Part shown: in pieces, positions 3,267 to 20,568 of the stretch
Layout: every line of letters begins with the position of its first letter
Position numbering within the stretch: position 1 is the stretch's first letter
DNA from: Microcoleus sp. FACHB-831
GTDB lineage: Bacteria > Cyanobacteriota > Cyanobacteriia > Cyanobacteriales > FACHB-T130
Assembly (NCBI RefSeq): GCF_014695585.1
Contig: NZ_JACJON010000042.1
Location: forward strand, 1 to 64,000
Direction of reading: 5' to 3'
Length of the DNA stretch: 64,000 bases
The notes under the pieces: generated by a model
What the model was told of the DNA's origin: nothing
The model's database searches: none
The model's input: only the letters and a program-made list of their open reading frames with translations
Made by a program: the position numbers and the translations under genes

Positions 3267-4136
3267 CTAATCCCGGACTTCCAGAGCGTACTGAGAACAG
3301 AGCGATCGCACTTCTTGTCTCATGCGATCGCGCACGCTTTCTGGGGACACGACAACACAATCTTTCCCATACCTCAACACTTCTCGGAAAAACCAGAAGG
3401 TATTGGAAATCTGCCGAACTACCTGTCGAACTTTTGGTTGGTCTCTCAACCAGTCATTCTTGATATCCGCAGGTTTGGCTTTATAGGCGAAGGCTAAGCC
3501 ACCAAAAAGATGCATCTCAATTTCGAGCTGACTTAGACCAGAACGCCACTGTCCTTCCACAGGTACGATCGCAGCCCCTGGCGGAATGCGATCCAAGCGG
3601 AGGCACCAGTTGTGATGCAGTTCTGGTAAGTCTTGATTTCCTTCTGTTTCATCGCACCAACAGTCTAGATATTCCCGTTTTTCGTGGAAGGTAATCTGGG
3701 CGTGGCGAATTGTGAAACTCCAGGGGCGGTCGGCGGCATCGCGGTAGACAAGTTGAAAAGGCTGCTGGCGGCGGATGTAGGGTTCGATTTCTAATCGCCA
3801 AGCTGCGGGCGGGGTCTTTAGGAAGTCTTCTATTTGTTTTCTTAGAGGAATAGATAGTTCACTGCGTTCGAGTAGCAAACTCGCAATTTTTGTAGCTTCC
3901 TCAATTTGTCCAGCATCAGTCAAGCTGTGGACAGCCTGTGCAAGTGCTTGAATACGAGTTTCTGACCAGTCGTTGTTTGGCGCAACTAAGAATTGCTGAC
4001 GAGCGATCGCTTCCACTAATCCAGAGATATTGGGGCGATCGCCCCGCATCATGCCCAATTCACGAGCGATCGCTTCTAGTTGGGCTTTGTCTTGGTCGGA
4101 GATGGACAAAGTAATCGACTGACCTTTTCGGCTCAC
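3267..4136 (-). CDS. WYL-domain transcriptional regulator of the type I-D locus
   Basis: This 289-residue protein starts with a short segment (about residues 1-35, KGQSITLSISDQDKAQLEAIA) resembling a ribbon-helix-helix DNA-binding region. A helical middle and a WYL-type ligand-binding domain follow (about 125-215, with FQLVYRDAADRPWSFTIRHAQ), then a C-terminal extension. WYL proteins beside cas operons are often regulators; Sll7009, beside the I-D locus of Synechocystis 6803, was described as a negative regulator of that locus. The gene is divergent from cas3', and the 125 bp between them carry repeated GGACAAA boxes, so repression of the cas operon and of itself is the natural inference. The RHH assignment is by pattern only. 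Confidence 0.82.
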   Translation of the reverse strand: MSRKGQSITLSISDQDKAQLEAIARELGMMRGDRPNISGLVEAIARQQFLVAPNNDWSETRIQALAQAVHSLTDAGQIEEATKIASLLLERSELSIPLRKQIEDFLKTPPAAWRLEIEPYIRRQQPFQLVYRDAADRPWSFTIRHAQITFHEKREYLDCWCDETEGNQDLPELHHNWCLRLDRIPPGAAIVPVEGQWRSGLSQLEIEMHLFGGLAFAYKAKPADIKNDWLRDQPKVRQVVRQISNTFWFFREVLRYGKDCVVVSPESVRDRMRQEVRSLCSQYALEVRD

Positions 4137-4261: not shown

Positions 4262-6442
4262 ATGACATCCGTATATTCCATAACTCTTAGACCGATTTAT
4301 TCTTACCCTGCTGATGAACAGCCTTTGGGCGTGAAGCTGCCAGATGGCTGGTCACTTTCCTGGCATCAGGTAGCAACGTTGAAAGCACTGCGCGCTCCAG
4401 AAATTGATGTGGTGTCCAATACAGCCGTGACTGGCGATGGCAAAAGTTTGGCAGCTTATCTGGAGACATTACAAGGCAATATTTCGGCGATCGCGCTGTA
4501 TCCCACTAACGAACTTGCCCGCGATCAGGAGACTCAAATTAAGGGCTACGTTAAGCAATTTCAGCCACCTAATGAGCCGCGTGTTGTGCGACTTAGCGGG
4601 CAAGATTTAGAAATCTACGCCGCGCAGGAGGGCTTAAAAAAAGCTGCTGCGATCGCTAGTCGGTCGGGGCAATCTGAAATTTTGCTAACTAATCCAGATA
4701 TTTTTCACTATCTGCATCGAGGTGTTTATCTAAACCCCAAAGATAGTCCGGACAAACTGTGGGGGCGAATAGACAAGGATTTTGACTTATTCATTTTTGA
4801 TGAATTTCACGTTTTTGCTGCCCCCCAGATTGCTAGCGTCATCAACACAATGCTGTTAATACGCCATACTAACAGGCGCAAAAAGTTTCTTTTTCTGTCA
4901 GCGACGCCGAACGAACAGCTTATTGAGCGATTGCAACTAGCGGGGTTTCGTTGCCGACAAATTAATCCAATTGAAGAAAATAAATACCAATTTCCAGATA
5001 CTCAAAAGCAATGTAAGGAGTTGCAATTGCAAGGATGGCGACAGGTATCGCGGGAAATTATTCTTGAGTTTGTTCCCTTGTCACCAACTTCTAAGGCTTC
5101 TGAAACTTGGCTGAAAGAAAACAGCGATCGCATCCTGGCTCATTTTCAACAATATCCTGGTAGCAAAGGAGCAATTATCCTCAACTCGATTGCAGCGGTG
5201 AAGCGTCTTACGCCCTTTTTTAGAGAATTGTTGCAGCCGTATGGTTTGGTAGTTGGGGAGAATACGGGATTATCTGGGAAAGAAGAGAAAGAGCGATCGC
5301 TACAAGCAGATCTAGTTTTCGGAACCAGCACAATCGATGTGGGGGTTGATTTTAAGATAAATTTTTTAATCTTTGAATCAGCAGATGCAGGGAACTTCAT
5401 CCAGCGTTTAGGAAGATTAGGACGGCATGATGATTATGAGCGTCATGGGAAAAAGGTTACTTTCGAGAAATTTACAGCTTACGCATTAACTCCCAACTTT
5501 TTAGTAGAAAGACTGTTTCTCGGTGAATCTCCACCCCTAGAGTCAGAGGGTATTTACGATCGTCCTTTTTTTCACGCCCAAATTAGTGAGAAATATCGAC
5601 AAATTAATGATTTTCGAGGATATTACTCTCGCTGGGGAGCAGTGCAGTCAGTTAGTCTGTGCTGTAAATTAGGGCATCCTACGATTAAACAACAGTATGC
5701 AGGCAGTCAGGAGGCATTTCGGGCAGGGTGTCAGCTAGTATTTAAAACTAGCTTGGGTAAAGTTGCAGGTGAAGTTAAGAAGTGGGGGAATGAGTGGCAA
5801 CAACTGTCAGGGAAAAAAGGAAACCTTATTGCGGAAGATGCTTATAGTTTCCGAGGTTCTAATCCTCTCCAGTGTGGTATTTACGATCTAACAGAGGCAA
5901 AGGAGGGAGACAGATTTAAAACCTACGATTTACCGGGAATTTTGAGCAATCTGGAAATCGAGGTGATGACTAAAGAGGGGTTTATGCGATCGCTCCTCCA
6001 AACTGCTGAACGCACAGAACATCCTATTGCTAAGGGGAGGTTTGATTACTGTCTTGCATTTATGAAGTTGCGTTCTTATCGCGAGGAGCGTTTGAACTGG
6101 AAATTTACCTATTCAGGTAATTTGGATGCGATCGCAGATGCTTGGAAGGTTCAGGTTTTGGCTGGGATTGAGGTTTGGCAACCTGAGAATTATTGGATTG
6201 GTGAAATTAACAAGCAGCTGAAGAACCAAGGTTTAGTCAGTTATGTGCTACGTCGTCCCGTCGCGGAAGTGCGATCGCGCTTGCGTCTCCCCATGCACTT
6301 TGCAATTTATCCCATTAGCGATCGTTACAGTTTTCACGATGCAACTGCACCTTATTCTATTGCCTTTGGTCAATCAGCTTTGCTGGTAGATACGCTCACA
6401 TACTGGCTCAAGAGCAAGGGAGGTGAAGCATGGTTCGCCTAG
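4262..6442 (+). CDS. cas3: type I-D CRISPR-associated helicase Cas3'
   Basis: A 726-residue superfamily 2 helicase. Visible motifs are Walker A-like TGDGKS (about 57-62), the DEAD-box variant DEFH (180-183), SAT (213-215) and motif VI QRLGRLGR (381-388). No HD nuclease domain is present, as usual for type I-D, where the HD domain sits on Cas10d. It unwinds target DNA after recruitment by the I-D Cascade. It is the first gene of the operon and starts just after the GGACAAA boxes. The stop codon TAG (6440-6442) abuts the first CRISPR-repeat-like unit, and the next ORF starts inside its 3' end. Confidence 0.93.
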   Translation: MTSVYSITLRPIYSYPADEQPLGVKLPDGWSLSWHQVATLKALRAPEIDVVSNTAVTGDGKSLAAYLETLQGNISAIALYPTNELARDQETQIKGYVKQFQPPNEPRVVRLSGQDLEIYAAQEGLKKAAAIASRSGQSEILLTNPDIFHYLHRGVYLNPKDSPDKLWGRIDKDFDLFIFDEFHVFAAPQIASVINTMLLIRHTNRRKKFLFLSATPNEQLIERLQLAGFRCRQINPIEENKYQFPDTQKQCKELQLQGWRQVSREIILEFVPLSPTSKASETWLKENSDRILAHFQQYPGSKGAIILNSIAAVKRLTPFFRELLQPYGLVVGENTGLSGKEEKERSLQADLVFGTSTIDVGVDFKINFLIFESADAGNFIQRLGRLGRHDDYERHGKKVTFEKFTAYALTPNFLVERLFLGESPPLESEGIYDRPFFHAQISEKYRQINDFRGYYSRWGAVQSVSLCCKLGHPTIKQQYAGSQEAFRAGCQLVFKTSLGKVAGEVKKWGNEWQQLSGKKGNLIAEDAYSFRGSNPLQCGIYDLTEAKEGDRFKTYDLPGILSNLEIEVMTKEGFMRSLLQTAERTEHPIAKGRFDYCLAFMKLRSYREERLNWKFTYSGNLDAIADAWKVQVLAGIEVWQPENYWIGEINKQLKNQGLVSYVLRRPVAEVRSRLRLPMHFAIYPISDRYSFHDATAPYSIAFGQSALLVDTLTYWLKSKGGEAWFA

Positions 6443-7005
6443 TTTCAATCCCTGATAGGGATTTTGGTTACTGGTTTACAGCGAGGGGGCATCAGCCCAT
6501 AAATTCAGTGGCGGAAATTTCAATCCCTGATAGGGATTTTCGGTGGATCGAAGATCGGAAGGCGACATTGAATTTGCCCGCTTATTTTGAGCTTACACCA
6601 ACTTGGCGTAAGTTAGTCAATAAATTTAGAGTATATTACTGTCTTCCGAAACTGTATTTATTTACAGCAGTGCTACCATCTAAGCAGTGGCATCAGCCCT
6701 TAAGTACAGAGACGGAAATTCGTTGGACGGCATTTGTGCCCTTTTCTGACGCTTCCATGCCCTTCTTAAGCGAGAAGTCACAATTCACAAAAAATGAATG
6801 GAGGTTCCGCTACATGGGCAACTATGAGCAGCTGGAACTCTTCGATCTGCGTGCTTACACATCTGAGCAGCCTACTGCAAGTGATGGTGAGGAAAAGCCG
6901 TTCGAGGAGATTCAGCAAAGTATCGATTGTGAACAGCTAGAACTCGATTTGTTTCCGCAGCAGCCTTACAAGACTCCTAGAGAGCTGATGAGATTAGCTG
7001 CATAA
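6430..7005 (+). CDS. hypothetical protein between cas3' and cas10d, N-terminus invaded by CRISPR-like units
   Basis: A 191-residue ORF of no family I recognise. Its first ~40 codons overlap the cas3' end and read twice through a 21-nt CRISPR-repeat-derived unit as SIPDRDF. The stretch from FTARGHQP to EI...RW is a degraded copy of a downstream part of the same ORF (FTAVLPSKQWHQP to EIRW). The genuine protein may therefore start further down, for example at the ATG at 6757 (MPFLSEK) or in a region lacking a good start. The C-terminal half is acidic and has two clamp-motif-like strings, QLELFDL and QLELDLF. It is co-directional with cas3' and cas10d. It could be a remnant of an I-D accessory gene; no function is assigned. 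Confidence 0.5.
   Translation: MVRLVSIPDRDFGYWFTARGHQPINSVAEISIPDRDFRWIEDRKATLNLPAYFELTPTWRKLVNKFRVYYCLPKLYLFTAVLPSKQWHQPLSTETEIRWTAFVPFSDASMPFLSEKSQFTKNEWRFRYMGNYEQLELFDLRAYTSEQPTASDGEEKPFEEIQQSIDCEQLELDLFPQQPYKTPRELMRLAA
6442..6465 (-). repeat. CRISPR-repeat-like unit 1 (reverse orientation)
   Basis: These 24 bases equal the reverse complement of the 3' two-thirds of the array repeat (AAAATCCC...ATTGAAAC). The hairpin CCCTATCAGGG and the 3' handle are intact; the 5' 13 bases of the full repeat (GTGCTAATTCATC) are absent. It lies directly at the cas3' stop codon. Confidence 0.85.
6517..6540 (-). repeat. CRISPR-repeat-like unit 2 (reverse orientation)
   Basis: A second copy, 75 bp from the first, a distance similar to the 70-78 bp period of the array. 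The hairpin and handle are retained and only the last repeat base differs (T for C). In the reading frame of the surrounding ORF it looks like a clean 21-nt insertion in a sequence otherwise similar to 6689-6727. Confidence 0.85.
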
Positions 7006-7485
7006 CTCTTAGCTAAACGGGGGCTGAAAATTAATCAATTCAAAAGCCCCCTCTTTGTCAAGATTTAAGCAATTAGAACATAAACCGCAATGAATACACT
7101 ATCACTATAAGAATTAAAAGCACTTTCTCCACAACTTGCTGAGAAAGTTCCTTATCTAAAACTGGTAGTTCTCTTCGGTTTCCGGGCCACAGGTCATATC
7201 AATGCCAAAAGTAACTGGTGTTTTCCTGCACTCTACGATGAATAAATCCGTCATAAGGCAGTTTTAAAAAAAAATAAAAATAGCTCCCCCAGGAAGTAAC
7301 TATGAAACCTTTATAGAGGTTAGTCGTTGGGGAATAATTACAAGGCAGTTTGTAAAATCGCCTGGTTCACCTTTACGAAGAAATAGACACAGTACAAGTT
7401 TACGCAGCAAGTCAGATAATTATGCAAAATTATCCGATTTATTAAAGGCAAGCGCTCGATTACTTATATTCATTAGAGGCTGAGA
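7006..7485. other. 480-bp gap inside the cas operon
   Basis: No gene is visible. At 7019-7051 there is a stem GGGGGCT/AGCCCCC with a 19-nt A/T-rich loop followed by TCTTT, a possible weak terminator or attenuator after the hypothetical gene. The rest is A/T-rich and carries no repeat I recognise; it may hold a separate promoter for cas10d. Only very short ORFs occur. Confidence 0.5.
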
Positions 7486-10400
7486 ATGGCTAATAAACAT
7501 AAACATTCTGATGAACAAGAAAAACAGCTATCTCTATTTGATGCAGAACGTTATGTTAATTGTTGTGAATCATCAGATTCACAAGAAGATTGGTTGCAAG
7601 ATGATGATTTAGGTTCCAGCTTTGAAAGCAGCGATCGCACCATCGAACCTAAACAGAGCGAGTTACTAACACTCAAACTATTGCGAGAGGCGATTCAGAC
7701 TCAGAATCCAGGCGATCGCGTAATGAGTGACTTCGCGGAGTATGTCTTACCAAATTTGCTGCGGGTGGCAATTGGCGTTACTGCAAAAGGTGGTAAGTTT
7801 TTTGATGAACTCGATCGCAAAAATGAAGCAGAAGGAAAAGATAGAGTTCGACGGGACAATGCAGGCGATCAATCGCTCAATACCCATTTACTCAATGGAC
7901 TGTTTCCAGCTAACTTAATAGAGCAACGGCTGGAAAAACTCAACACTACCGTGCGGCGGGTGGTGGGTGAACTGGAACGAAGGCTGGTAATTGCTGGGTT
8001 TATTTTGCATGACTTTGAAAAATTCCCTGATGTGCCAGGTGATTGTCGCAAATTACCGCTAGAAAAGCATCGTCAAATTATTGATGAAAAAGTGCGTCAA
8101 TTGGGTTTAGATCGCTTCATCAATCCTGACAACTTGGAAGCATATCGGGAGTATATAGATGATTTACTGTGTTTAGCTTATAATGCCCAGCGGCGTTATG
8201 ATACTAATTGGAATTTTTCCGAGTTTGGGTTAAATCCAGTATTGCGCGATCGCACTCTCCGCTGTCTTGCTGACTTAACTTGTCTAGCAGATTCTTTGGC
8301 TTCAATTGTCAAACATCCCCAAGATGCAGAAGATACAAAGCTAAACGAGTTAATCCATAGTCTCAGTGATGGACAATTAAAATTCACTTACCACAGAATT
8401 TCTGAAAACCGAGGCGTACTAACAAACGTAGTAAATAACGCTTGTATGGAGGCTCACATCAGCCTTAATACCGACGATTGCACCTACTACGAACCGCTGC
8501 TATATCTACCAACAGGAGTAATCTACTTAGCAAGACGGGATGCTCCATCAGTTCCAGTTGAAGATTTACCAGAACGAGTTGTTAGCAAGATTAAAAACCT
8601 GTGCGCCAGTCAGTTGCGATCGCGGCAAACTGGCTTTGGTAGAGATGGCAAAGGCATGAAATATGCTGATTATTACACGCTGTTTTTTGATGCGCCAGGT
8701 TTGATGCAAGTCGCACTCAGCGCAACACTGAGGATTCTAAATCCGGGTAAAATTTCTGTTGCTAAAAGCCGCAGCGATAACTTGATAAAATATCAGCGCC
8801 AGGAAATTTTATCAGCGGATTACAATTTTAGTTTTACAGACGATATGCGGATTGACCAGATTGCTGAATTCGGCGATCTGATCGGTCGCAAGATTTGGGG
8901 AGAACAAGTTAATCAAATCGAAATTGAACGCAAGAAAGATAAAAAAATCCCTGCATTACCCCATCTCGATATTGTCGAAGAAATTGCTAAATTATGGAAT
9001 TTGTCGGAGTATCTGCCAGCAATCAAAGAAATTCAGCGAATTAATGAAAGTCTCAAGGAACACAAGCTTAAAGGTAACACTGGTGGCGTTCCCTATGAGT
9101 GGTATTATTTGGCTGCAAAGTATCTAGAATTTCATCCAGGAGTTGAGGATGTACGCGAGATTTGTGAAGGCGCGATCGCTCACATTTCCCAACTAATTCA
9201 ACCCATTATCGCTCAATACAAATTGCCCGATGGTTGGGATGATTTGCGGCTTTGGGTAACGCGAGTTGTCATGCTACCAGGAAAAACGCCATCTACGACA
9301 GCAGATCCCTCTGAAGTATTCTTAGACGAGTTAGAACGCTACCAGCTAGCCAAGAAACAGGGACGAGGAAGACAACTAATTTGCTCTATTTCCCATTCTG
9401 CTTACACGGTGACAGAGCAAATGGAGTCAGCCGTTTTATTCACGCCTCAAGTTTATACCAATAAACAGATGTTGGGAGGTTCTAATGCCAAACGCAACAT
9501 CTCTAGTATTGCTGGAATTGAGATAATGTTGCGGCAAATCTTGATGAATCAAACTCAAGCTGTAGGTAAGAGATTTGAAGATGGCAAATATCGCTATCTC
9601 TATTTTTATCCTACTTATTACTTCACGCCAGAAACTAACAATTTTCTGCAAAAGGCGTACAGCGGTATTGCTCAAACTCGCTTTGATACTAGCATCCGCG
9701 ACCACTTTATCAGTAAGGATTTGCAAGCGAACTTTGAGCGCGATCGCTATCAAAGTGTAGATGCTTTCCTAATTGATGAAAACATCGAACCAGGGAAAGA
9801 TCGTACCTTCAAGCTCTCCTACCCAGAAGACCAGCCTTTGACATTCTACTTCATGGCATTACCTCCAGGACGAGATGGGACGGATACGGAATCTTGGGTA
9901 ATGCCTACCTGGTTAGCTTTTGCTTTCCCGATGATTCTGGATGTCAAAACAGTGGTTTCAGAGTCTCCCATACCACCATTTAATGATGGGGCAGAGTTTG
10001 AGGAAAGCGTATTTATTGATAGTGCGCCGCAAGCTTTTAGAGTTTTGACAAAGCGCGATCGCTTCCGGCTCGACTACATCTTAGAAGGCTGGAATGAAAA
10101 TGGCAAGTCTTATCCCGCGCCACTCAATGTATTAACAGCAGCTTATGCCATTCATCTTGATGTTAATGCACGACAAGGAAAAACTGGTTATGACTCCAAC
10201 TGGGGAAAATTTACCGAACTAGCGAAAGATTTTGAAACAAATTCGCTATACGTGTTCGCTTACTTAAATAAGTGGATTCGCCGTCAAAAAATCGATGCAC
10301 CTAGAATTGATAAGGTAAAACTCTATGCCTATCATTTCTATCCCTGCTTCGATCCTTATGCAAGATATAATCCAGAAACGGAGGAATTGATAGTGGGAGA

Positions 10401-10863
10401 AGAATCAAGTCTAAATCATCCCAAAAAGCTGACGGAATTGTATCGCAAGTTTTACAGAGCAAATAAGCGATATAACCCTAAAGCAAATGCTGTGTTGAAA
10501 CCTATTGATATTGCGTCTAAAACAATTCTTGAAGCCGATCCAAGTTTTCAGGGTGAAGCCTTAGTTGCTGTTGTTGCTGCTGAAGTTTCTAAGTTGTTGG
10601 ATCGAGTGCATTCCTCCACCGCTGAAGGACGCTGGATATTCAAAAAGCGAGAGGAAGAACGAGAAGCAATTTTAGATTTTGCTCGGTACTTTGTTGAAGA
10701 GGTATTTGAAAAGTCTTTTGCAGGCGATCGCGCTCGTTTAGCAGGGCGTCAAATTAACCTAATTCGAGATACTTGCGAATTTTTATATCGCCTCGAAGAT
10801 GACAAAGAAAGTCGGGCTAGAGATGAAATATCTCGTGATGATTCACAGGATGAAGAAGATTAA
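7486..10863 (+). CDS. cas10d: type I-D CRISPR large subunit Cas10d (Csc3) with HD nuclease
   Basis: 1125 residues, the size of the family. The N-terminal third holds the HD nuclease region, with H134 (NTHLLNG) and the HD pair 175-176 (FILHDFEKF). The middle is the degenerate palm/Cas10-like body, and the C-terminal ~156 residues form the helical small-subunit region. Cas10d is the large subunit of the I-D Cascade and supplies the DNA-cutting HD activity that I-D Cas3' lacks. QLSLF near the N-terminus (14-18) resembles a sliding-clamp binding motif. An in-frame GTG at 10393 behind a strong Shine-Dalgarno should allow separate production of Cas11d. A MITE-like element separates it from csc2. 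Confidence 0.93.
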   Translation: MANKHKHSDEQEKQLSLFDAERYVNCCESSDSQEDWLQDDDLGSSFESSDRTIEPKQSELLTLKLLREAIQTQNPGDRVMSDFAEYVLPNLLRVAIGVTAKGGKFFDELDRKNEAEGKDRVRRDNAGDQSLNTHLLNGLFPANLIEQRLEKLNTTVRRVVGELERRLVIAGFILHDFEKFPDVPGDCRKLPLEKHRQIIDEKVRQLGLDRFINPDNLEAYREYIDDLLCLAYNAQRRYDTNWNFSEFGLNPVLRDRTLRCLADLTCLADSLASIVKHPQDAEDTKLNELIHSLSDGQLKFTYHRISENRGVLTNVVNNACMEAHISLNTDDCTYYEPLLYLPTGVIYLARRDAPSVPVEDLPERVVSKIKNLCASQLRSRQTGFGRDGKGMKYADYYTLFFDAPGLMQVALSATLRILNPGKISVAKSRSDNLIKYQRQEILSADYNFSFTDDMRIDQIAEFGDLIGRKIWGEQVNQIEIERKKDKKIPALPHLDIVEEIAKLWNLSEYLPAIKEIQRINESLKEHKLKGNTGGVPYEWYYLAAKYLEFHPGVEDVREICEGAIAHISQLIQPIIAQYKLPDGWDDLRLWVTRVVMLPGKTPSTTADPSEVFLDELERYQLAKKQGRGRQLICSISHSAYTVTEQMESAVLFTPQVYTNKQMLGGSNAKRNISSIAGIEIMLRQILMNQTQAVGKRFEDGKYRYLYFYPTYYFTPETNNFLQKAYSGIAQTRFDTSIRDHFISKDLQANFERDRYQSVDAFLIDENIEPGKDRTFKLSYPEDQPLTFYFMALPPGRDGTDTESWVMPTWLAFAFPMILDVKTVVSESPIPPFNDGAEFEESVFIDSAPQAFRVLTKRDRFRLDYILEGWNENGKSYPAPLNVLTAAYAIHLDVNARQGKTGYDSNWGKFTELAKDFETNSLYVFAYLNKWIRRQKIDAPRIDKVKLYAYHFYPCFDPYARYNPETEELIVGEESSLNHPKKLTELYRKFYRANKRYNPKANAVLKPIDIASKTILEADPSFQGEALVAVVAAEVSKLLDRVHSSTAEGRWIFKKREEEREAILDFARYFVEEVFEKSFAGDRARLAGRQINLIRDTCEFLYRLEDDKESRARDEISRDDSQDEED
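10393..10863 (+). CDS. cas11d: Cas11d small subunit from an internal start within cas10d (predicted)
   Basis: In type I-D systems the small subunit Cas11d has been shown to be translated from an internal start in cas10d. Here GGAGGAA (10380-10386) lies 6 nt before an in-frame GTG at 10393, which would give about 156 residues covering the helical C-terminus and ending at the same stop. The placement and size match what is expected for Cas11d. The alternative TTG at 10387 sits too close to the Shine-Dalgarno. That the start is used is inference. Confidence 0.65.
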   Translation: MGEESSLNHPKKLTELYRKFYRANKRYNPKANAVLKPIDIASKTILEADPSFQGEALVAVVAAEVSKLLDRVHSSTAEGRWIFKKREEEREAILDFARYFVEEVFEKSFAGDRARLAGRQINLIRDTCEFLYRLEDDKESRARDEISRDDSQDEED

Positions 10864-10876
10864 TTTCTCGGTTAAT

Positions 10877-10994
10877 TTCTCGTTACCAGGCTGGAGCCTG
10901 GTAACGAAAGAGTAGAGGCTCTGCCTCTTTTGATTAAGCTGGAGGCTCCTGCCTCCAAAAGAAGCATTCCCAGGCTCCAGCCTGGTAACGAGAA
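10877..10994. mobile_element. 118-bp MITE-like palindromic element
   Basis: The two ends are perfect 25-bp inverted repeats (10877-10901 and 10970-10994; outer bases TTCTCGTTACC). Each end is itself a small palindrome (CCAGGCTGGAGCCTGG). The inside has two further hairpins (GAGGCTCTGCCTC and GGAGGCTCCTGCCTCC). It has no coding capacity. Relatives lie at 33410-33528, 41831-41945, 45546-45652 and, shortened, 52173-52203. Confidence 0.8.
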
Positions 10995-11020
10995 AATAAG
11001 AAATATCTGGAGACAAAACT

Positions 11021-16003: not shown

Positions 16004-19000
16004 GTGCTAATTCATCAAAATCCCTATCAGGGATTGAAACTGAATTTCTTCTACTGGATAGCCAATCTTAATAGTGCTAATTCATCAAAATCCCTATCAG
16101 GGATTGAAACCACCAACTCAGCAAGCGGCAACAGCGATCGCGTCCGTGCTAATTCATCAAAATCCCTATCAGGGATTGAAACGCATTACTGCTTGGTCGA
16201 TACGTTGCACCACTTGTGCTAATTCATCAAAATCCCTATCAGGGATTGAAACACAGCTTCAGGCTTAGCAATTCCCATCCACGATTGTGCTAATTCATCA
16301 AAATCCCTATCAGGGATTGAAACTATTTGTGAGTAAACCCCCGAAGGGGCGGGAATAGTGCTAATTCATCAAAATCCCTATCAGGGATTGAAACCTGAAG
16401 AGAACTCGGTTACTCCAATCAAAGAACAGTGCTAATTCATCAAAATCCCTATCAGGGATTGAAACAACTGCTGCCTCGATCCAGTCTGACACCTCTAGCG
16501 TGCTAATTCATCAAAATCCCTATCAGGGATTGAAACGAATGCTGCCACGAAAGGTTACGGTGTGGAATTCTGTGCTAATTCATCAAAATCCCTATCAGGG
16601 ATTGAAACGTTTAGCTGTAACGGGCGCGGCGCGGGAAAACAGGTGCTAATTCATCAAAATCCCTATCAGGGATTGAAACTACACGCTGAAAGTTGCCGCC
16701 CTTGCTGGCATTGATGAGTGCTAATTCATCAAAATCCCTATCAGGGATTGAAACGAGGTAATTTAGCTTCCAACTTGGGTAGACAAAAGGCCAGTGCTAA
16801 TTCATCAAAATCCCTATCAGGGATTGAAACCAGTGAAAGAGCAATTATAAGCAGCCATCATTCCATGTGCTAATTCATCAAAATCCCTATCAGGGATTGA
16901 AACAGTTCCATCTCGCGGATCGCAAATTGCTACCCATGCTACAGGTGCTAATTCATCAAAATCCCTATCAGGGATTGAAACAATTAGAGCTATTTGAATC
17001 TGAAGCTCAACACCTGTGCTAATTCATCAAAATCCCTATCAGGGATTGAAACCTAGCCATAAATTACTAGGATCAATAGTAATAGAAGCTGTGCTAATTC
17101 ATCAAAATCCCTATCAGGGATTGAAACTTGTAGTTTCATGGCTCTAGGTAGTAACTATGTAGTGCTAATTCATCAAAATCCCTATCAGGGATTGAAACCA
17201 GAGGCATATCGTAGCCATGATGTTGATTTAGCCCGTGCTAATTCATCAAAATCCCTATCAGGGATTGAAACAGGCGTAAAAGCTTTAATGCTTTCAAATA
17301 ATTCCGTGTGCTAATTCATCAAAATCCCTATCAGGGATTGAAACATCAGTTACAACGCCTATCCGCAAGGCGTTGTGAGTGCTAATTCATCAAAATCCCT
17401 ATCAGGGATTGAAACTGCTTCAAAGCTTGCTTGCCTTGTTGCCCACCTAGTGCTAATTCATCAAAATCCCTATCAGGGATTGAAACTAAATGCTGATGAT
17501 GCTATAGAAACCTTTTTTCTAGTGCTAATTCATCAAAATCCCTATCAGGGATTGAAACTTAGGAGGAAAGCAGGGCAGGGAAGCATTAAAGAGTGCTAAT
17601 TCATCAAAATCCCTATCAGGGATTGAAACTAAATCTGTAGCGGCTTCCGGGAGGAAGATTATTGTGCTAATTCATCAAAATCCCTATCAGGGATTGAAAC
17701 AGCGAGGCAATAGGGAAGCAAGTATAGGAAATGCGTGCTAATTCATCAAAATCCCTATCAGGGATTGAAACTAATCACCCCAAAGGATACCATTACATCT
17801 GTATCGTGCTAATTCATCAAAATCCCTATCAGGGATTGAAACTTATACAGAGTTAGACAGGGGATATCAATTTCAGGGTGCTAATTCATCAAAATCCCTA
17901 TCAGGGATTGAAACGGCAGATTAGTCGCGATCGCAGGCATCGCTTTAACGTGCTAATTCATCAAAATCCCTATCAGGGATTGAAACGCCATCAGTTGCAG
18001 CGTTGCTTTTAGCTCTGCCTCAAGTGCTAATTCATCAAAATCCCTATCAGGGATTGAAACGGATTAATCTCCCTCCTCTCTCTAGTGGATTGCTCGTGCT
18101 AATTCATCAAAATCCCTATCAGGGATTGAAACCTTTACCTACGACGCCAGGAGCGTCTATGTTTCCGTGCTAATTCATCAAAATCCCTATCAGGGATTGA
18201 AACGGTGCAGGGCAAGCCAGTTGATGGTGTATCACCAGACGTGCTAATTCATCAAAATCCCTATCAGGGATTGAAACCAATCGCGGGAGCCGGAAACAGA
18301 CTCAGACTCACGTGCTAATTCATCAAAATCCCTATCAGGGATTGAAACCTTGGCGGGATCTCTGCTGGGTAATATCTCTGAATCGTGCTAATTCATCAAA
18401 ATCCCTATCAGGGATTGAAACCTTGGCGGGATCTCGCTGCCAAATATCGTGATAAAGTGCTAATTCATCAAAATCCCTATCAGGGATTGAAACGGGTTCA
18501 GAAGTTGTCGTAGGCCGCAGACTCGTTATGTGGTAATTCATCAAAATCCCTATCAGGGATTGAAACTCATCCATGATTCTTACTAAATAAACAACATCAA
18601 GTGCTAATTCATCAAAATCCCTATCAGGGATTGAAACTATTACTTTTCACGGCATAGGCTAAAAAGTATGTTGTGCTAATTCATCAAAATCCCTATCAGG
18701 GATTGAAACGTCGCCATTGATGGCGAGGGTGTGAGTTTCTAGGAGTGCTAATTCATCAAAATCCCTATCAGGGATTGAAACATTAGATTTAGAATCAAAA
18801 GCGCGAAAAAACACATCCGTGCTAATTCATCAAAATCCCTATCAGGGATTGAAACTAGATCTACAAATCTGGGTTAAGACTTCCACCATTGTGCTAATTC
18901 ATCAAAATCCCTATCAGGGATTGAAACGCTAAGGCTATTGCTGGATGCCAGAATGATTTACCGTGCTAATTCATCAAAATCCCTATCAGGGATTGAAACA

Positions 19001-20568
19001 AAACGAATCACAAGTTGATGTCTTTATTAGGAAGTGCTAATTCATCAAAATCCCTATCAGGGATTGAAACTGCCTTAAACGCCCTCCTTGCAACTTGAGG
19101 AGTAGTGCTAATTCATCAAAATCCCTATCAGGGATTGAAACCAATCTGCCGTGAAAGTACATAAAATTGCTCTCTGGTGCTAATTCATCAAAATCCCTAT
19201 CAGGGATTGAAACCAAAGTTGATGAAGAAAAGATCGTCAACAGATCTGTGCTAATTCATCAAAATCCCTATCAGGGATTGAAACGCGCTGTAGCAGGTCT
19301 AAGCGCGAGCTATGCTTCCGTGCTAATTCATCAAAATCCCTATCAGGGATTGAAACGGCGCCCTAGCCTCTGAGACTGGCATAAGCTCGCGTGCTAATTC
19401 ATCAAAATCCCTATCAGGGATTGAAACTTTTTTCGGTAAAGCTCAACTAAATCATCAACTTCCGTGCTAATTCATCAAAATCCCTATCAGGGATTGAAAC
19501 TTTTATCTAAGTAATAAGCAATGATCTTGCCTTGTGCTAATTCATCAAAATCCCTATCAGGGATTGAAACGCAGAGCAAACGAATCAGGGGCGAAGTGCA
19601 GCAAGTGCTAATTCATCAAAATCCCTATCAGGGATTGAAACTCGCCCATCTGGAAGGATTGCTCGTCGAGCGGAAGTGCTAATTCATCAAAATCCCTATC
19701 AGGGATTGAAACGAGATTGTTTCTCTATCTGGGCTGTGTAGTTAGCGTGCTAATTCATCAAAATCCCTATCAGGGATTGAAACTTCCAGATTCCCAGTTA
19801 CTAATCGTTGGTACCGTGTGCTAATTCATCAAAATCCCTATCAGGGATTGAAACCGGGAATTGATTACTGAAGCACTCCACGTACTAAGTGCTAATTCAT
19901 CAAAATCCCTATCAGGGATTGAAACAAGATATTGACCTGCTTTCGCATCAAAAGGCAGAAGTGCTAATTCATCAAAATCCCTATCAGGGATTGAAACCTC
20001 ATACTCGGCCTCGGACTGGATGCTGTCTCCAGTGCTAATTCATCAAAATCCCTATCAGGGATTGAAACGCACTCGCTGCCGCTGCCGCTAAACCCAACGC
20101 GAGTGCTAATTCATCAAAATCCCTATCAGGGATTGAAACAAAGCTATAGATGGCACTAGAGTGATGGTGCGATCGTGCTAATTCATCAAAATCCCTATCA
20201 GGGATTGAAACTTGGAAGATTTCGCTAATCTCCTCTGCACTAAAGCGTGCTAATTCATCAAAATCCCTATCAGGGATTGAAACATTAAGTCGGTGAGCTT
20301 CCCTTGCTTATGTAGTTCGTGCTAATTCATCAAAATCCCTATCAGGGATTGAAACAAACAGGGCTAGTTGGTTGGGCGAGGGTTGGTTGGTGCTAATTCA
20401 TCAAAATCCCTATCAGGGATTGAAACATCGACAACTCGATCGCCAGCGCTGAATTTACAAGTGCTAATTCATCAAAATCCCTATCAGGGATTGAAACTTT
20501 TCTGTCCGCTCTGGGGCCGTCGTTTCGTAGCGTGCTAATTCATCAAAATCCCTATCAGGGATTGAAAC
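16004..20568 (+). CRISPR. type I-D CRISPR array, 64 repeats and 63 spacers
   Basis: The 37-nt repeat begins GTGCTAATTCATC and ends AGGGATTGAAAC, with an inner hairpin CCCT-ATC-AGGG. By eye I count 64 repeats from 16004 to the last at 20532-20568, with periods of 70-78 nt and spacers of 33-41 nt. All repeats appear identical except number 36 at 18530, which has G for C at position 4. The last, leader-distal repeat is intact. cas genes and leader lie upstream on the same strand, giving the transcription direction. Two spacers contain full HIP1 octamers (16134-16141 and 17927-17934). Neighbouring spacers at 18349 and 18422 share their first 14 bases. I found no spacer with an obvious match inside this window. 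Confidence 0.98.

Follow-up and report, generated by a model that had tools for sequence, protein, structure and literature searches.

The type I-D CRISPR (clustered regularly interspaced short palindromic repeats) locus of the cyanobacterium Microcoleus sp. FACHB-831 raises the question of why two truncated copies of its repeat lie outside the array, in reverse orientation, between cas3' and cas10d. The stretch of DNA analysed (positions 1 to 64,000 of contig NZ_JACJON010000042.1, called the window here at its full length) holds a complete I-D locus, with a WYL regulator gene, cas3', cas10d, csc2, csc1, cas6, cas4, cas1, cas2 and an array. The two copies very probably delimit a conserved regulatory mini-CRISPR of type I-D whose guide is directed to a promoter, and this mini-CRISPR layout after cas3' recurs in many cyanobacterial I-D loci. 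The parts of the locus concerned are as follows.

4262 to 6442, plus strand: cas3' of type I-D (NCBIfam TIGR03158, 417 bits)
6442 to 6465, minus strand: downstream mini-CRISPR unit, 24 nucleotides (nt) with hairpin and handle, overlapping the cas3' stop codon by 1 base
6466 to 6516, minus strand: putative mini-CRISPR guide (spacer), position 1 being 6516
6517 to 6540, minus strand: upstream unit (unit 2), source of the 5' handle ATTGAAAT, its final base changed from C to T
7486 to 10863, plus strand: cas10d (NCBIfam TIGR03174, 1085 bits)
16004 to 20568, plus strand: CRISPR array with matching 37-nt repeat

Both units are 5'-truncated and reverse-oriented, with GTTTCAATCCCTGATAGGGATTTT at 6442-6465 and ATTTCAATCCCTGATAGGGATTTT at 6517-6540 on the plus strand and a spacing of 75 bp, and both keep a Cas6-type hairpin whose stem folds as had been stated in an earlier note on the window, made from its letters alone. 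The local array repeat GTGCTAATTCATCAAAATCCCTATCAGGGATTGAAAC has at its 3' end the same 24 nt as the units show on the minus strand, except that the upstream one has T in place of the final C, and the Rfam model CRISPR-DR5 matches both units on that strand at 38.9 and 33.5 bits, slightly below its cut-off of 40. The 13 nt of the guide beside the downstream unit occupy the place of the 5' part lost from the full repeat. For comparison, cas3' was searched for in 388 genomes of the class, 97 of which gave a match at E 1e-60; 75 cas3' loci were fetched as set 1, remote homologues (mostly 30-44% identity) and fragments being left out, and 86 new loci together with 2 named plasmid records formed set 2, from which the weakest places were left out and in which 57 of the 88 have unit 2. 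The guide was always read from unit 2, 5' to 3' on the minus strand. Across related genomes the paired units, their place and strand and both of the guide-site relations described below are conserved: in most of the closer loci one repeat-like unit lies at +3 to +5, counted from the end of cas3', and another at about +66 to +95, the downstream unit keeping its +3 to +5 position in relatives, some loci have a single unit only, at about +44 to +52, and none were found in L085, L134 and L135, where cas10d starts 175 bp or less after cas3'. Unit 2 fits the array repeat of its own genome better than the mean of other arrays in 32 of 33 loci and the hairpins in relatives track their own genome's repeat, CCCGGCAACGGGA types included, so these are, as in CreR-type mini-CRISPRs, repeats outside the array that are related to those of the local array.

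Hairpin copies as such are not rare, about 17 single ones lying outside arrays in the window's genome, and for this reason the unit pair by itself is weak evidence; it is the conserved guide-target relations, rather than the pair, that carry the case. The same copies would favour taking the units as ordinary dispersed palindromes (small dispersed repeats) or as remnants of a former array, which is nevertheless highly improbable given that the pair, its place and its strand are conserved in many loci, that the hairpin tracks the array repeat, that both guide-site relations hold, and that the copies looked at elsewhere were single, except for two on contig C58. Elhai is said to have described small dispersed repeats in 2008 as single mobile copies at unrelated places, whereas the unit pair is fixed in place across genomes. 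The dispersed single copies do resemble small dispersed repeats with the stem of the CRISPR repeat, and the other hairpin copies of this genome may qualify as such; those on C32, C39, C45, C46, C48, C58, C67, C73, C81 and other contigs (L147-L163) are mostly intergenic, often with TA before them. A second array of the genome (G000:C28:73801-74896, L146) has a repeat with the same 3' stem and a different 5' half.

The first of the two sites matched by the guide lies in front of a small gene.

6641 to 6643, plus strand: GTC protospacer-adjacent motif (PAM) of the promoter target
6644 to 6659, plus strand: predicted promoter DNA target, TTCCGAAACTGTATTT, matched by guide positions 1-5, 8-11 and 13-16 (13 of the 14 scored positions)
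6671 to 6679, plus strand: extended -10 element TGC-TACCAT predicted for the small gene, from class A comparison
6800 to 6804, plus strand: Shine-Dalgarno-like GGAGG, nine bases before the small gene start
6814 to 7005, plus strand: small gene, 63 amino acids, with motifs QLELF and QLELDLF and an AA end, present at the same place in 16 relatives
7019 to 7051, plus strand: hairpin downstream of the small gene, perhaps a terminator or a signal for processing (z -2.96 for 7006-7066)

Several unrelated small-gene families follow the promoter target at this place, encoding in class A a protein of about 63 amino acids with QLxLFD and QLEL(D/N)LF motifs (the window and 16 others), in class B a small helix-turn-helix (HTH) protein that matches the PADLOC model HTH, and in class C a coiled-coil protein; automatic sorting called 50 of 117 loci "other", the window included, of which many fall into class A, B or C on inspection by eye. 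The earlier note had likened the units to a minimal CRISPR of the CreA/CreR kind, which is correct in kind, the guide having a conserved match to a GTN-flanked promoter site, and had then held the lack of a GTN PAM against the likeness. The site it considered does lack one, and the objection falls away because the DNA target is a different site, 6641-6659, with its GTC PAM (GTN is the PAM given for I-D in PMC10212523). The window's target mismatches the guide at positions 6, 7 and 12, and when the genome (6.42 Mb) was searched with the spacer, 6644-6659 was the sole GTN-flanked match at one mismatch or fewer, and the second site (6688-6717, below) was likewise unique, the guide itself aside.

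A GTN-flanked guide match was found in nearly every locus, mostly 140-220 bp after cas3'. Sites were scored over 14 guide positions (1-5, 7-11 and 13-16) beside a GTN PAM, a rule chosen after the loci had been viewed, so that set 1 is not an independent test whereas set 2, which includes sister species, is. At least 11 matches were reached in 94 of the 116 loci with unit 2, namely 50 of 59 in set 1 and, under frozen rules, 44 of 57 in set 2, where a few loci whose guide start was apparently misread (e.g. L205, L215 and L254) were kept as failures. Shuffled guides scored 12 in 1 of 5900 (set 1) and 0 of 2850 (set 2) trials, and reversed regions (set 1) gave at most 10. If no PAM was required, the best sites scoring at least 12 carried GT at -3,-2 in 46 of 48 (set 1) and 37 of 40 (set 2) cases. 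Among 31 qualifying pairs, from 43 seeds less than 70% identical, positions 1-5 matched in 97-100%, position 6 in 32% and position 12 in 26%; positions 6 and 12 of the guide-promoter pairing are thus near chance level, as expected for Cascade, and the match fades beyond 16. A -10-like TA...T peaks 20-31 nt to the right of the target's left edge (42 counts in 94 loci, about 5 per 4 nt elsewhere) and hence the target overlaps the -35 region; the window's own TGC-TACCAT promoter (6671-6679) was absent from the list given by a simple promoter scan. As in CreR, the guide therefore complements a promoter of the cas locus to a limited extent and beside a PAM, and, as in CreTA and CrePA, that promoter belongs to a small gene. 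It does not behave as an ordinary self-targeting spacer, which would have a full-length match with a PAM, the PAM site being matched only to about position 16. The site over the -35 of the small gene has the anatomy of CreR/CreA guide sites.

The second site lies in the stretch of which the DNA between and beyond the units had earlier been noticed to be a degraded copy.

6688 to 6717, plus strand: second site, PAM-less, located at the predicted mRNA 5' end and complementary to guide positions 1-30 (24 of 30)

The identity of 27 in 32 claimed between 6488-6519 and 6689-6720 holds, and 1000 shuffled queries over the same interval gave a maximum of 22. This site differs in kind from the promoter site, being nearly full length and transcript-sense. 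It was ruled out as a DNA target because it has no PAM, GT at -3,-2 being present in 0 of 68 such sites. Over guide positions 4-29, 35 of 48 long guides in set 1 scored at least 17 of 26 on the minus strand (1.7% for shuffles), and 10 of 48 did so on the plus strand, which holds many of the promoter sites; in set 2, 33 of 53 guides reached at least 18 (0.2% for shuffles), and 2 of 53 did so on the plus strand. The counts of 35 and 68 include L099, in which a GC-rich repeat was taken as guide and which was excluded from the swap and <70%-identity analyses below.

The mismatches at the second site fall with a period of six, occurring in 67% (set 1) and 77% (set 2) at positions 6, 12, 18 and 24, in 82% and 91% at position 30, and elsewhere within 4-29 in a mean of 12% (set 1) or 2-24% by phase (set 2), while positions 1-3 are often mismatched. 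For guides less than 70% identical (15 pairs) the phase-0 mismatch was 72% vs 5-25%. Over 63 distinct guide/second-site pairs, the match to the own site at non-flipped positions was 0.873 vs 0.619 after swapping, own exceeding the swapped mean in 63 of 63, and at flipped positions it was 0.278 (own) and 0.249 (swapped). It follows that the distal guide half, which plays no part at the promoter, is kept for the second site, whose fit obeys the six-base rhythm of Cascade. The site might instead have arisen long ago by duplication or conversion of the spacer, or be what is left of a repeat-spacer unit, and now be functionless; its orientation is that of the guide, the class B flank TTGAGACT resembles the handle TTGAAAC plus one base, and the class A and B guides look homologous. 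We consider this unlikely, because neither conversion nor decay would keep to the rhythm of Cascade, with a mismatch at every sixth position and guide and site covarying at all other positions only, and because the class B site sits within a stem that itself covaries (pairing of a locus's own arms above the swapped-arm mean in 41 of 46).

In class A the second site starts about 8-11 nt after the -10 in 7 of 8 set-1 loci and 21 nt after it in L084 (by eye), and in class B it lies downstream of the HTH gene and ahead of cas10d or inserted genes, within a region closed by a long stem. In both classes a plus-strand RNA would be complementary to the guide, so that the pairing may be placed at the mRNA 5' end (class A) or in a structured intergenic RNA (class B). 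The class B region, about +500 to +850 after cas3' (L105, L097), comprises some 150 conserved nt closed by the covarying AGAGGGAAGC/GCTTCCCTCT stem, and may be a new structured RNA because an Rfam scan of 20 loci gave CRISPR repeats only. In PMC9123187 and PMC10212523, the I-D Cascade binds single-stranded RNA whatever its flank and its binding to a duplex with an AAC flank was undetectable. Since this Cascade binds RNA without a PAM (PMC9123187), we read the second site as an RNA target. That would be the simplest reading of it.

Many of these genomes carry type III effectors, whose RNA targeting likewise needs no PAM, so a co-resident type III effector, rather than the I-D Cascade, might borrow the guide and read the RNA site. 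This is improbable, as 14 of the 34 genomes with a second site, the window's own included, have no match to Cmr2 or Csm1 at E 1e-10 and such effectors are therefore not needed. Nor was an association of type III with the second site seen, genomes without Cmr2 and Csm1 making up 14 of 34 with the site vs 11 of 24 without it (III-D-like Cas10 falls outside both models).

On balance we lean slightly towards one guide serving two kinds of target in a single circuit, pairing in part with promoter DNA, as licensed by a PAM, and over its full length with the transcript, where there is no PAM. Cas6 would process a minus-strand RNA with two degenerate repeats to a single crRNA-like (CRISPR RNA-like) guide which, held in the I-D Cascade, would pair over about 16 nt, with 6 and 12 skipped, at the GTN site over the small-gene -35, upstream of cas10d. 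Cascade should sit there and block transcription, not recruit Cas3' to cut, because the pairing ends at about 16 nt; CreA/CreR offers the precedent. The distal half of the guide would find the near-full-length site in the plus-strand transcript, and binding of this RNA by the same complex would either silence escaped transcripts or titrate the complex. Abundant ordinary crRNAs or Cascade inhibitors would be expected to relieve the promoter block, as they relieve CreR repression according to PMC12737573. On present evidence the output would be mainly a CreR-like feedback on the small gene and cas10d operon. That feedback on cas10d appears direct in L124, where the next open reading frame (ORF) after the target is cas10d with no small gene between, and coupled in L131, where the small ORF overlaps the cas10d start; in the window the small gene and a hairpin intervene.

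If this is correct, the two-target guide would be a natural regulatory use of the single-stranded RNA binding reported for I-D in vitro, and PMC9123187 gives as an open question how the I-D Cascade chooses among single-stranded RNA, single-stranded DNA and double-stranded DNA. One guide has apparently been selected to fit two sites, 16 nt of PAM-flanked DNA and 26 nt of RNA-sense sequence without a PAM, each of which could be separately disabled by point changes. The rhythm of a mismatch at every sixth base would serve as a sequence-only test for sites read by Cascade, and in cyanobacterial hosts of I-D the control element would be relevant to genome editing and phage work and would point to small genes of unassigned function that depend on Cascade.

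Several points weigh against this account. The conserved anatomy, the two guide-site relations, the PAM at only one of them, the six-base rhythm and the covariation are read directly from the DNA, and from them we infer the expression and processing of the guide, the repression and the RNA binding. Of the 116 loci with unit 2, 22 have no qualifying GTN site, and 31 of the 88 set-2 loci fail the unit-2 rule. In set 1, 40 of 2678 pairings of a guide with a foreign region also score at least 11, so related promoters resemble each other. The I-D locus of Synechocystis PCC 6803 has no such interval, leaving no room for units. The window's small gene is separated from cas10d by 480 bp with a hairpin between, and cas10d may therefore have its own promoter there. 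In PMC10212523 the flipped bases begin at position one, but the free positions of the present sites are 6, 12, 18, 24 and 30. Mismatches of the G-U type number 57 of 176 at the second site and 39 of 133 at the promoter site; they do not tell RNA from DNA pairing, and wobble was dropped as an argument that RNA is paired.

The earlier note had also offered a coding explanation, in which the repeat unit is a clean in-frame insertion (SIPDRDF) into a coding duplication.

6430 to 7005, plus strand: long ORF, 191 amino acids, running through the units, its part upstream of 6814 judged fortuitous

Relatives of this ORF are piecewise only, several having stops in the upstream frame, and its last 63 amino acids recur in relatives with their own start codon, the real small gene beginning at 6814. 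A coding insertion was ruled out by these stops and by unit spacings that differ by single bases. The "clean removal" of the unit (CGGTGGA vs CGTTGGA) matches at 6 of 7 positions with no recurrence found, the flanks differing in L103, the one locus looked at. The small gene belongs to no Pfam, NCBIfam or PADLOC family, a first protein search of the genome contigs gave no match, and no relative of solved structure was found for the small proteins of classes A and B; its QLxLF motif resembles, we presume, beta-clamp binding peptides.

A different part for the small gene would be that of the output itself, as in a CreTA- or CrePA-like addiction or guard system in which the guide silences a harmful small gene that is freed when Cascade is lost or inhibited. 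In PMC9458426 and PMC10097628 the promoter match of CreTA is partial, with free positions 6, 11 and 18, and the present element shares with CreTA its degenerate repeats, a partial promoter match with free positions and a downstream small gene. In Acinetobacter, the I-F CreTA sits between cas3 and csy1 (PMC10097628), an equivalent place between cas3 and the gene for the large subunit. Toxin-antitoxin-like genes (DUF433, PIN-like, MNT, HEPN) fill the cas3'-cas10d interval, and the target lies at the promoter of unrelated small-gene families (63-amino-acid proteins with two QLxLF motifs, HTH and coiled-coil), as would be expected for exchangeable toxins. Such a guard is possible, although we doubt it: loci such as L124 and L131 have no separate small gene, and the match of the class B protein to the PADLOC model HTH suits a regulator equally well. 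Three small proteins scanned in the Pfam, NCBIfam and PADLOC libraries matched no toxin family, and the small genes here, unlike CreTA, encode proteins of about 60-110 amino acids. CreP of CrePA typically has a KilA-N domain (PMC12737573), which was not matched among the small proteins scanned in the same libraries. The authors of PMC10097628 regard type I effectors as theoretically unable to bind a complementary transcript, a limit that need not hold for I-D.

The regulatory mini-CRISPR that we favour can also be set beside other elements. Liu et al. are said to have described CreR in 2023 as a cas-regulating RNA made from mini-CRISPRs, and Shmakov et al. reportedly surveyed, also in 2023, crRNA-like elements, both repeats standing alone and mini-arrays, with matches to promoters of cas genes or of cargo. 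In this they are like the present element, and a second RNA-sense site is not known to be among them. A full-text literature search, with the Liu and Shmakov surveys outside it, returned no description of an I-D guide of this kind, and two exact patterns searched in viral contigs gave no phage copies of class A or B guides. The likeness to CreR, as that element is reported, lies in two degenerate repeats, limited complementarity to a promoter of the own cas locus, the PAM and the absence of a full-length match. The effector here is I-D, whereas PMC13131331 names I-B, I-E and V-A, and the target here is a small-gene promoter upstream of cas10d together with a second, full-length and PAM-less transcript-sense site. 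The phage RNA anti-CRISPR Racr (PMC10651486) likewise has its repeat outside arrays, bound by Cas6; it is a single guide-less repeat on phage genomes, whereas the present unit lies in a cas locus and has a conserved guide.

Some further features were seen around these elements. Class B promoters (L074, L075, L079, L086, L087, L096) often have two facing guide-like sites with their PAMs central, and the example of L086, AAGTCCTGACTTATTT-AAC-GGTT-AAATAAGTCTTAACTT, resembles a double operator. In L071-L145 the cas3'-cas10d interval is a hot spot for DUF433 with a PIN-like partner and for MNT/HEPN pairs, the largest ORF cluster being all on the plus strand. The WYL-family regulator gene (WCX domain match; 3267-4136, minus strand) is divergent and adjoins cas3', as it does in other I-D loci. 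Between cas10d and csc2, the window has two similar palindromic CCAGGCTGGAGCCTGG-like copies at 10883-10914 and 10967-10998. The N-terminus of Cas10d itself (window 7486-7560) carries the motif QLSLFD, of a kind present twice in the class A small protein, which we take to be a beta-clamp-like peptide and which also occurs at many other Cas10d N-termini.

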